From the NCBI GenBank assembly GCA_903851195.1, contig CAINNJ010000032.1, positions 1 through 64,000 on the forward strand: a stretch of DNA of 64,000 nt, read 5' to 3'. The stretch comes from an uncultured Acidobacteriia bacterium (GTDB lineage Bacteria; Acidobacteriota; Terriglobia; Bryobacterales; Bryobacteraceae). Shown here piece after piece: positions 58,239-61,639 of the stretch; positions within the stretch are counted from its first letter, which is position 1; each line of letters opens with the position of its first letter. The notes below the pieces were generated by a model. It ran no database searches. It was not told the DNA's origin and saw only the letters and a program-made list of their open reading frames with translations. The position numbers and the translations under genes were made by a program.

Positions 58239-58976
58239 TTATCGGAATTCGGGCGCCGGGAAGCAGTCGGTGAGACGCACGCTTCCCAGCCAGGCGGAAA
58301 TCGCAATCAGAACAGGTTGGCGGAGGTGTGTCACCGGCGTCATTTCGTCCGGATTGAGCAGTTCCAGAGATTCCAGCCGGATGCGCGGTTCGGCGGCCAG
58401 AAATTCGCGCGCTTTTGCGCAGGCGGCCTCCGGAGACGGCGCGCCGCGGAAGATCTCCGCCGCTACTAACCGCAGCGCGCGGTATAACATCGGCGCGACC
58501 AGCCGTTCTTCCGGCCGCAAACGCCAGTTGCCTGAGCTCACTGCCAGTCCATCGGCCTCCCGCAGCGTGGGCACTGCAACGATCGTCACCGGGATATCCA
58601 AATAACGGACTCCGCGCCGGATGTCGGCCAGCAATCCGGCGTCGCTTTCGCTCAGGCAGACCAGATCCGGCCGGAGAATCTGAACCAATTCGATCAGCAA
58701 GGCACCGCTTTGCGAGTCCCGGATCGACGGCGAAAAAGCGAAGCCGGCGCCCGCTTCCCGGCAGAGCCGCAGATCGTTCTCCGGGTTACCGCGGGGCGGC
58801 TCCAGAAAGCCGACTGCCACTGCCTCCGCCCGCGATCGGGCCTCTTCGATGATCCGCACGTGCCCGTCGTGCAACTCGCCCGCTACAGGAACGAGCGCGA
58901 GGGTTTGCCGCGGTAAGCGGGGCAAGGCAAATCGCTGCCGGAGAGCGCCGATCGTCGTGATTACTTCCGTCGTCAT
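58239..58976 (-). CDS. Divergent PanC-like (pantoate-beta-alanine ligase) protein
   Basis: 245 residues against about 280 for PanC. The fold is recognised from VPVAGELHDGHVRIIEEA (HxGH at 36-39), GFLEPPRG, VPTLREADGLAVSS and LYRALRL. The MGALHxGH start is changed to AGELHDGH. The FGEKDYQQL motif reads LSESDAGLL, losing the catalytic-type Lys. SSRN reads SSGN, losing the conserved Arg, and FVNP reads FLEP. These changes argue against normal pantothenate synthesis, although a new substrate is possible. It is 6 bp downstream of the VWFA gene, so co-transcribed. Confidence 0.75.
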   Translation of the reverse strand: MTTEVITTIGALRQRFALPRLPRQTLALVPVAGELHDGHVRIIEEARSRAEAVAVGFLEPPRGNPENDLRLCREAGAGFAFSPSIRDSQSGALLIELVQILRPDLVCLSESDAGLLADIRRGVRYLDIPVTIVAVPTLREADGLAVSSGNWRLRPEERLVAPMLYRALRLVAAEIFRGAPSPEAACAKAREFLAAEPRIRLESLELLNPDEMTPVTHLRQPVLIAISAWLGSVRLTDCFPAPEFR

Positions 58977-60150: not shown

Positions 60151-60183
60151 TCACGTTTTTTTTCACGTTTGCACTCGTATAAT
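60151..60183 (+). promoter_or_regulatory. Candidate promoter and direct repeats for the AAA-receiver gene
   Basis: TATAAT at 60178-60183 is a perfect -10 element, and the ATG at 60194 follows by 10 nt, so the transcript would be nearly leaderless. The direct repeat TCACGTTT occurs at 60151-60158 and 60163-60170, 12 bp apart, with a T-tract at 60156-60161. The -35 is weak, as for activator-dependent promoters, so the repeats could be an activator or response-regulator site. Confidence 0.5.
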
Positions 60184-60193
60184 CAGCACAGAT

Positions 60194-61639
60194 ATGACGG
60201 ACCGACCCAAAATGAATTCCGGAGCGAAAGCTCGTGGCCGGCAGAATGCCGAACCGACCGATCTGACCTCAGTACTCTCGTCGAAGGTAGTTGGTCAGCC
60301 CAATGTAATCAGCGTCATTGTGCCTTACATTGAGATGTTTCAGGCCGTCCTTGCGCCGGAGAACCGGCCCGTCGGCGTGTTTCTTCTTTTAGGTCCCACC
60401 GGAACGGGAAAGACCCGCACCGTGGAGGCGCTCGCCGAAGTGCTCCACGGCAGCATCAAAAATTTGCTGAAAATCGATTGTGGCGAATTTCAGATGGAAC
60501 ATGAGGTTGCCAAGCTGATTGGGGCGCCTCCCGGATATCTCGGCCATCGTGAGACGCAGCCCATGCTTTCGCAGCAGAAGCTGACCGCCGTCACGAGCGA
60601 GCGAAGCGGCCTTTCGCTGGTTCTTTTCGACGAGATCGAAAAGGCCGCGCCTTCCATGACACGCCTGCTGCTGGGCGTCCTCGACCGCGGGGTGCTGCGC
60701 CTCGGTGACAACTCGTCGGTGAACTTCGAGAAGAGCATCGTCTTCCTCACCAGCAATCTGGGAGCGAAGGAAATGATGCGGGAGATCAATCCGGATTTCG
60801 GCTTCCAGTCCGCCAGCGGAGGCATTCCCCGGGAAGAAGTTTCGCAGAAGCTGCAGAGCATCGCGCTCATGGCCGTTCGGAAGAAGTTCTCGCCGGAATT
60901 CGTCAACCGCATCGATCATGTGATCACGTACCAGCCGCTCGATGCCGAGTCGTTCGCGGCCATCACCGACCACGAGATCGACAACCTGCAGAACCACGTC
61001 AACTCGCGACTGGGGACGCGTTGTTTCACGATTGAAGTTCCCTTCGAAACCCGGCAGTGGCTGATCCAGAAGGGGACCAGCCCGGAGTATGGAGCCCGCG
61101 AACTGAAGCGGACCATTCACAAGAATCTGACGCAGCCGCTCGCGACCATGGTCGCGAAGAATCAGATCGAACCCACGGCGCGGGTCCGGGTAGACGTTGC
61201 CGAGGACAAGGAATCGCTGGTGATGCGCTCCACGGGGACCGGCGAGGCGCCGGCGCCGTCTCATCCCACCGTGTTGCTGGTCGACGACAACCGGGATCTG
61301 CTGCAGTTTCTGCAAAGGCTGATGGCGGAATCCGGCTGGGAACTGCTGGCCGCCGAAACCGCGGGAGACGCCCGGAAAATGGTCGCGTCGCACAAACCAA
61401 ACGCGGCTTTGCTGGATTACATGCTGCCGGACGGAAACGGCGTGGAGTTGGCGCAGCAACTGCGCGGTGTGATGCCGAACCTGCCGATCATCATGATGAC
61501 CGGAACCGTGCTGGGACCGGAGGAGGAAGCCATTTGCGAGGAGTACGACTTCCCGGTACTTCGGAAGCCGTTTCTGGCGACGGATGTGATGAACCAGATC
61601 CGTGCGCGGCTCACCGGAAAGGCGCGAGGCGGGCGCTGA
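60194..61639 (+). CDS. Single-module HSP100-type AAA+ unfoldase fused to a receiver domain
   Basis: 481 residues. Residues 30-340 are one Clp/HSP100 module: Walker A GPTGTGKT (67-74), pore-loop GYLG (114-117), Walker B LVLFDEIEKA (Asp146/Glu147), sensor-1 Asn188, arginine finger in FVNRID and sensor-2 GARELKR. The N-terminal domain and first AAA ring of ClpB/ClpA are absent, and no ClpP-docking loop is obvious. Residues of about 357-475 form a receiver domain with Asp364/Asp365, phospho-acceptor Asp408 (LLDYMLPDGNG), Thr436 and Lys458, all conserved. The unit could be an unfoldase gated by phosphorylation. The histidine kinase is not in the window. Confidence 0.88.
   Translation: MTDRPKMNSGAKARGRQNAEPTDLTSVLSSKVVGQPNVISVIVPYIEMFQAVLAPENRPVGVFLLLGPTGTGKTRTVEALAEVLHGSIKNLLKIDCGEFQMEHEVAKLIGAPPGYLGHRETQPMLSQQKLTAVTSERSGLSLVLFDEIEKAAPSMTRLLLGVLDRGVLRLGDNSSVNFEKSIVFLTSNLGAKEMMREINPDFGFQSASGGIPREEVSQKLQSIALMAVRKKFSPEFVNRIDHVITYQPLDAESFAAITDHEIDNLQNHVNSRLGTRCFTIEVPFETRQWLIQKGTSPEYGARELKRTIHKNLTQPLATMVAKNQIEPTARVRVDVAEDKESLVMRSTGTGEAPAPSHPTVLLVDDNRDLLQFLQRLMAESGWELLAAETAGDARKMVASHKPNAALLDYMLPDGNGVELAQQLRGVMPNLPIIMMTGTVLGPEEEAICEEYDFPVLRKPFLATDVMNQIRARLTGKARGGR

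Follow-up and report, generated by a model that had tools for sequence, protein, structure and literature searches.

Can the motor of a Clp-type protease also be a response regulator? The question is raised by one gene in a 64,000-nucleotide stretch of DNA from an uncultured Acidobacteriia bacterium (the window), an ATG-initiated open reading frame on the forward strand (60194..61639, 481 aa) that was predicted to join an HSP100-type AAA+ module to a complete receiver (REC) domain. Both parts are present, and Pfam and alignment find their ATPase and phospho-acceptor residues intact. The Pfam matches, all above the curated cut-offs and, like every feature of the gene given here, on the forward strand, are the AAA_2 large ATPase subdomain (residues 58-242, 60365..60919; E 1.1e-34, 120.3 bits), the ClpB_D2-small lid subdomain (residues 249-333, 60938..61192; E 9.6e-15, 54.8 bits) and the Response_reg receiver domain (residues 360-469, 61271..61600; E 1.8e-15). 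A scan of genome contigs gave 137 relatives, and among the 80 loci kept (55 with REC, 25 without) the nearest relative shows 87% full-length identity. Our alignment holds 111 rows: 59 fusions, 2 of them duplicates (hence 57 distinct fusions), as well as REC-less sequences, 27 of them close relatives and 25 more distant paralogues.

A TATAAT hexamer (60178..60183) ends 10 nt before the ATG and could be a -10 box, in which case the transcript would have no leader or almost none. Of 63 fusion loci, 15 have a TATAAT-like hexamer with 0-1 mismatch 7-14 nt before a start codon, as against 19 of 240 shifted control windows, and the exact hexamer recurs 9-12 nt before an ATG, amid differing DNA, in L038, L041-L045, L047, L049 and L068. 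Such recurrence possibly reflects leaderless mRNA and may back the assigned start codon.

The AAA+ module carries Walker A (GPTGTGKT, residues 67-74, 60392..60415), a GYLG pore loop (residues 114-117, 60533..60544) and Walker B (LVLFDE with D146/E147, residues 142-147, 60617..60634). These elements, together with S187/N188, R239 and R302, are invariant or nearly so among the 59 aligned fusion rows; we take S187/N188 to be the sensor-1 region, R239 the Arg finger and R302 sensor 2, our assumed names for these ATPase motifs. Thus AAA_2 and ClpB_D2-small, Walker A/B, sensors, Arg finger and aromatic pore loop, the features that mark a D2-type HSP100/Clp unfoldase, are all found. In NCBIfam and PDB comparisons the first ~345 residues match the second ATPase ring of two-ring HSP100s only. 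AAA+ homology begins at about residue 24, so there is no space for an N-domain, and 481 aa leave none for a first ring or an M-domain. The whole-family scores are highest for ClpB, not ClpA; we nevertheless reject membership in the ClpB disaggregase family, which has two rings, an N-domain and an M-domain, since the NCBIfam ClpB profile is matched at positions 559-849 only and at 220.9 bits, far below its cut-off of 1232.1. In a phmmer search of the PDB, ClpB (178 bits) stood slightly above ClpC (173 bits). An AlphaFold2 model built from 41 sequences (mean pLDDT 80.2, pTM 0.67; low confidence at residues 1-21, 201-210 and 477-481) retrieved with Foldseek a ClpC-ClpP model as the top PDB match (9a66_A, E 7.5e-28), followed by ClpB NBD2 crystals (4lj8, TM 0.75 by target length) and ClpC-ClpP complexes. 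Judged by its sequence, the window protein is a single-ring, D2-type HSP100 with a receiver after the lid subdomain.

A receiver and an AAA+ domain on one chain is also the pairing of NtrC, and REC-AAA-HTH proteins of this type appear for archaea in excerpts of PMC5847659. A sigma-54-type transcription activator could further claim a weak Sigma54_activat match (28.1 bits, cut-off 20.2). However, AAA_2 and ClpB_D2-small score far better (120.3 and 54.8 bits), the ATPase is of HSP100-type AAA_2 and not of sigma-54 type, no HTH is present and the receiver sits at the C-terminus, the wrong end for the order REC, sigma-54 AAA+, HTH. We regard such an activator as extremely improbable.

Which partner the ring would serve is addressed by the FGF tripeptide at residues 202-204 (60797..60805), a candidate ClpP-docking loop of the hydrophobic-G-F/L kind between sensor 1 and the Arg finger. 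According to excerpts of PMC12521514, docking into ClpP occurs through a PhiGF motif, which reads AGF in ClpC of S. aureus, and the ClpC-ClpP interaction is abolished by G672D/F673D. Among the 57 distinct fusions, residue 202 is F in 52, I in 4 and V in 1, and G203 and F204 are found in 57/57. The 27 close REC-less relatives have F26 I1, then G27, then F26 Y1; the 25 paralogues have mostly I first (19/25), then G25 and F25. The first residue of the fusions is thus mostly F, as against I, L and A in the examples compared. The paralogue of the window's own genome, L002 (G000:C39:92937-93920), is a second single-ring Clp protein without REC and with an (I/M/L)GF loop; its type occurs in most sampled Bryobacterales-type genomes and is scattered across the phylum.

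The loop was compared within the same genome with three other HSP100s (L003, L004 and L005; the ClpV-type L006 and the ClpX L170, which gave no motif-search match, lie outside this comparison). At this place L004 has NPIGF and L005 HLGF, and in the ClpB L003 the stretch is shorter and GF is missing; the distance from sensor 1 to PEF is 48 in the window protein, 54 in the paralogue, 37 in L003, 43 in L004 and 42 in L005. The NCBIfam ClpB cut-off is passed by L003 and L004 (L004 with 1269 against 1232), and L005 passes no listed cut-off. L004 (G000:C4:834947-835852 region) is therefore a two-ring HSP100 that is ClpB by NCBIfam, yet has the IGF loop of ClpP partners, and so the loop alone is no proof of a ClpP partnership. 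The genome does encode a strong ClpP (C52:9282-9824, E 1.5e-79), plus one weak ClpP match.

These same data bear on whether the fusion is instead a phosphorylation-gated chaperone or disaggregase that works independently of ClpP, its FGF loop a relic or a site of some other contact. Single-ring ClpB-type disaggregases exist (mitochondrial CLPB/Skd3), and PDB chains of CLPB/Skd3 match the fusion at E about 1e-26 to 1e-27; the best family match is the second ring of ClpB, and the IGF of the ClpB-scoring L004 points the same way. Set against this, the N-domain, M-domain and first ring are absent, and the GF pair and the longer loop are kept throughout the window family, whereas the ClpB L003 is shorter there and lacks GF. 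We consider a ClpP-independent chaperone somewhat unlikely. Of the original prediction of a phosphorylation-gated unfoldase or disaggregase, the conserved AAA_2-REC fusion is upheld; a disaggregase fits less well than an unfoldase that would partner ClpP, given the PhiGF loop and the missing N-domain, first ring and M-domain, and gating by phosphorylation is proposed.

The receiver of the window protein has D364/D365, the phospho-acceptor D408 (codon 61415..61417), T436 and K458, so that the fold, the acidic pair, the phospho-Asp, the Thr/Ser and the Lys of a Response_reg receiver are all seen by Pfam, AlphaFold2 model or alignment. Across the distinct fusions, D364 and D408 are kept in 57/57, D365 in 56/57 (the single exception is S) and K458 in 56/57, the sole gap being L079, whose frame is cut by a contig end; position 436 is T in 48, S in 4, C in 3 and A in 2. 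In the larger set of 63 fusions the second acidic residue is altered in two distinct sequences, L086 and L137. The domain around these residues has drifted: over 30 representatives mean pair identity is 51% for REC against 70% for AAA+, and mean column entropy is 2.39 bits in the variable linker (residues 341-357, 61214..61264), 1.50 in REC and 0.86 in AAA+. That the phospho-site residues are retained despite this divergence argues for a working receiver. As a separate observation, C448 in helix 4, within an acidic EEExxC-type stretch, is kept in 95% of the 63 fusions, possibly for a redox or interface role.

The receiver might alternatively be no phospho-switch at all, serving as a dimerisation or localisation module or responding to an input other than a histidine kinase. 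The substitution of T436 by neither T nor S in 5/57, a V instead of an aromatic three positions before K458 (presumably the REC switch residue) and the lack of a kinase on the window's contig are consistent with this. The constancy of D364 and D408 (57/57) and of K458 (56/57) speaks against it, as do the surroundings of L083, L085 and L087, which are rich in two-component genes; we think it unlikely.

The original prediction also held that no partner kinase or protease lies beside the gene. This stands for the window's own genome: none of its 50 HisKA matches (49 over cut-off) is on the window's contig, C32, the three Hpt matches are all on other contigs, a Pfam scan of eight neighbouring or nearby window ORFs (the fusion aside) found no kinase and no protease, and no clpP was seen beside the gene. 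It does not extend to the family, where histidine kinases stand beside the fusion in three Blastocatellia-type loci. In L083 a 1131-aa PAS/HAMP histidine kinase begins 146 bp after the fusion, with further kinases, response regulators and an Hpt protein within 6 kb; in L085 and L087 two LuxR-type response regulators lie upstream and a histidine kinase downstream. In a fourth locus labelled Blastocatellia, L084, whose contig measures 5.1 kb, the kinase-like gene is of Ser/Thr type, and about 3.8 kb upstream of the L057 fusion there is a hybrid kinase. A home-made kinase motif search found ORFs in 4 of the 80 loci (L057, L083, L085 and L087), with at least one kinase per locus confirmed by Pfam, and it undercounts, having missed the Pfam-found kinases at L083:9640-13035 and L085:1586-5770. 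An association of fusion and kinase in three to four of 80 loci is suggestive only.

Other neighbours were noticed along the way. In 8 of the 55 fusion loci the fusion is followed directly by a gene (e.g., L059:4049-4813) whose product has a pseudo-receiver-like N-terminus, and the L059 copy has no Pfam match. A gene for a JAB/MPN-like membrane protein lies near 7 of 25 REC-less loci and one fusion locus (e.g., L092:9368-10519, whose JAB match of 20.2 bits is just below the cut-off of 22.5). In the window itself, 58239-58976 on the reverse strand encodes a 245-aa pantoate ligase-like protein, its best Pfam stretch covering profile positions 129-266 of 268, which may be a divergent PanC.

How did the two domains come together? 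That related genomes keep them as separate genes, joined here by a frameshift, was the explanation the original prediction exposed itself to, and it fails. A frameshift or gene-prediction artefact is rejected because 55 of the 80 kept loci have an open full-length frame (one of them, L079, cut by a contig end). Searched with the REC alone, nine REC-less genomes gave no stand-alone receiver that stood out (best match 52.4 bits, 39% identity over 88 residues; the best non-self match in the window's own genome has 46.7 bits). Nor did a REC remnant turn up downstream of REC-less genes, of which 43 were searched with some duplicates among them: the window REC gave a best E of 0.49, and four other RECs one of 0.59. 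In an AAA+-only tree of 66 rows, with the distant paralogues as outgroup, the fusions form one clade (90/96 support) with 1 REC change on the tree; of 200 bootstrap trees, 92% recover the grouping, a value short of the 95 that earns the tool's star, and the bootstrap had not settled. As this tree has it, the fusions share a single line of descent, either from a REC-less syntenic relative or from an ancestor common to both.

The REC-less syntenic relatives (L012, L013 and L092-L117) share the AAA+ module at 52-68% identity, the paralogue L002 at about 45%, and both kinds end after the lid subdomain. Of the 80 loci, 57 have infA upstream (36 with a fusion, 21 with a REC-less form), so fused and unfused genes occupy the same chromosomal place. 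Three genomes (G332, G368 and G396) have a fusion together with a close REC-less form: by simple motif searches of short flanks, the REC-less copy adjoins infA in G332 and G396 and the fusion does not, and in G368 infA is in neither fetched stretch. The window fusion is likewise away from infA, which is on contig C23, the window being on C32. This fits a history in which REC was gained once where infA is and the fusion was later relocated or transferred, to Blastocatellia among others; loss of REC is a conceivable alternative history.

The AAA+-REC fusion is a conserved protein of some soil Acidobacteria. Of 19 genomes from the window's genus, 18 give a match reaching into REC (two of these matches are partial, starting at query residue 96 or 134), and G417, 88% complete, has the paralogue only. 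A sample of the order gave a fusion match in 26 of 120 genomes, and any match at E <= 1e-60 in 105 of 120, a count that pools fused, unfused and paralogue forms and is mostly REC-less; a sample of the phylum gave 4 of 297 (own genome included) and 40 of 297, respectively. The relatives from the contig scan, whose patterns were built from the window sequence and sample distant phyla poorly, nearly all carry Acidobacteria labels. Two labelled otherwise, L089 (Acidimicrobiia) and L047 (Nevskia soli), have infA and wecB neighbours as in Acidobacterial loci and are probably mis-binned. Spread by plasmids is rejected: of 56 plasmid records that match, none covers over 80% of the query, and those among the matches listed cover the AAA+ part only.

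This vertical-looking inheritance, syntenic with infA/wecB in the relatives, also weighs on whether the protein serves in phage defence, as do DolB of Dodola and PDC-M37B, both of which have a ClpB-like AAA module. PADLOC does match PDC-M37B (84.4 bits) and DolB (59.7 bits); both matches are partial, stop before REC instead of spanning the full-length profile, and score well below the ClpB profile (220.9 bits). A role of this kind seems to us very improbable.

We find a single-ring Clp/HSP100 unfoldase subunit, kin of the second ring of ClpC/ClpB, with its C-terminal REC as a covalent (cis) phospho-switch, to be the most plausible account, at a little short of an even chance. For it speak the PhiGF loop in fusions, REC-less relatives and wider paralogues, the ClpC-ClpP top structural match, and the genomic ClpP and 49 HisKA matches over cut-off; against it, ClpB outscoring ClpA/ClpC, the IGF in the ClpB-scoring L004, the few kinase-adjacent fusions and the less conserved REC. 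The AAA+ part would form a hexamer, thread substrates through the GYLG pore and dock ClpP via the PhiGF loop, a docking that the C-terminal REC might hinder. D408 would be phosphorylated by histidine kinases encoded elsewhere, or adjacent in Blastocatellia, and the altered REC surface would gate hexamer assembly, substrate capture or access to ClpP.

With the ClpC second ring that works with ClpP, the fusion shares the D2-type AAA+ fold, the GYxG pore loop and the PhiGF loop between sensor 1 and the Arg finger, and it differs in having one ring and not two, no N- or M-domain, a C-terminal REC and a motif that mostly begins with F. ClpB/Hsp104 NBD2 is its top sequence-profile match, from which it differs by its single ring, its longer loop with GF, its REC and the lack of an M-domain. 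Precedents for such regulation include RssB and the control of NtrC rings by their REC. A precedent in trans is CpdR, which excerpts of PMC11519897 describe as a response regulator that receives its phosphate through CckA and, as an adaptor, delivers substrates to ClpXP. By analogy, phosphorylation of the receiver would control an AAA+ protease in the fusion too; CpdR, however, is a separate protein acting on ClpX, whereas here the switch would be built into the motor. No description of an HSP100-REC fusion was found in the open-access text searched, nor in the excerpts of PMC11519897, PMC12521514, PMC5847659 and PMC10333796. We therefore rate the modules, and their logic in trans, as known, and the fused arrangement, with its conserved, lineage-specific history, as new.

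We tentatively hypothesize, as a possibility, that in this AAA+ protease the response regulator is the unfoldase subunit: a histidine-kinase phosphorelay acting directly on the motor, with six REC per hexamer, would switch degradation by ClpP with no transcription step or separate adaptor. The arrangement would have a single origin in Acidobacteria, through a fusion event at a single-ring Clp locus that was already there. Whatever the mechanism, a little-described single-ring Clp family of Acidobacteria is documented, and its REC-less members are natural controls. If the proposed steps are true, the fusion would be a natural single-chain system for the gating of an AAA+ ring by REC and the shortest nameable route from sensor kinase to unfolding or degradation, without adaptor or gene expression, and in these bacteria protein unfolding or breakdown would be switched directly by environmental signals.
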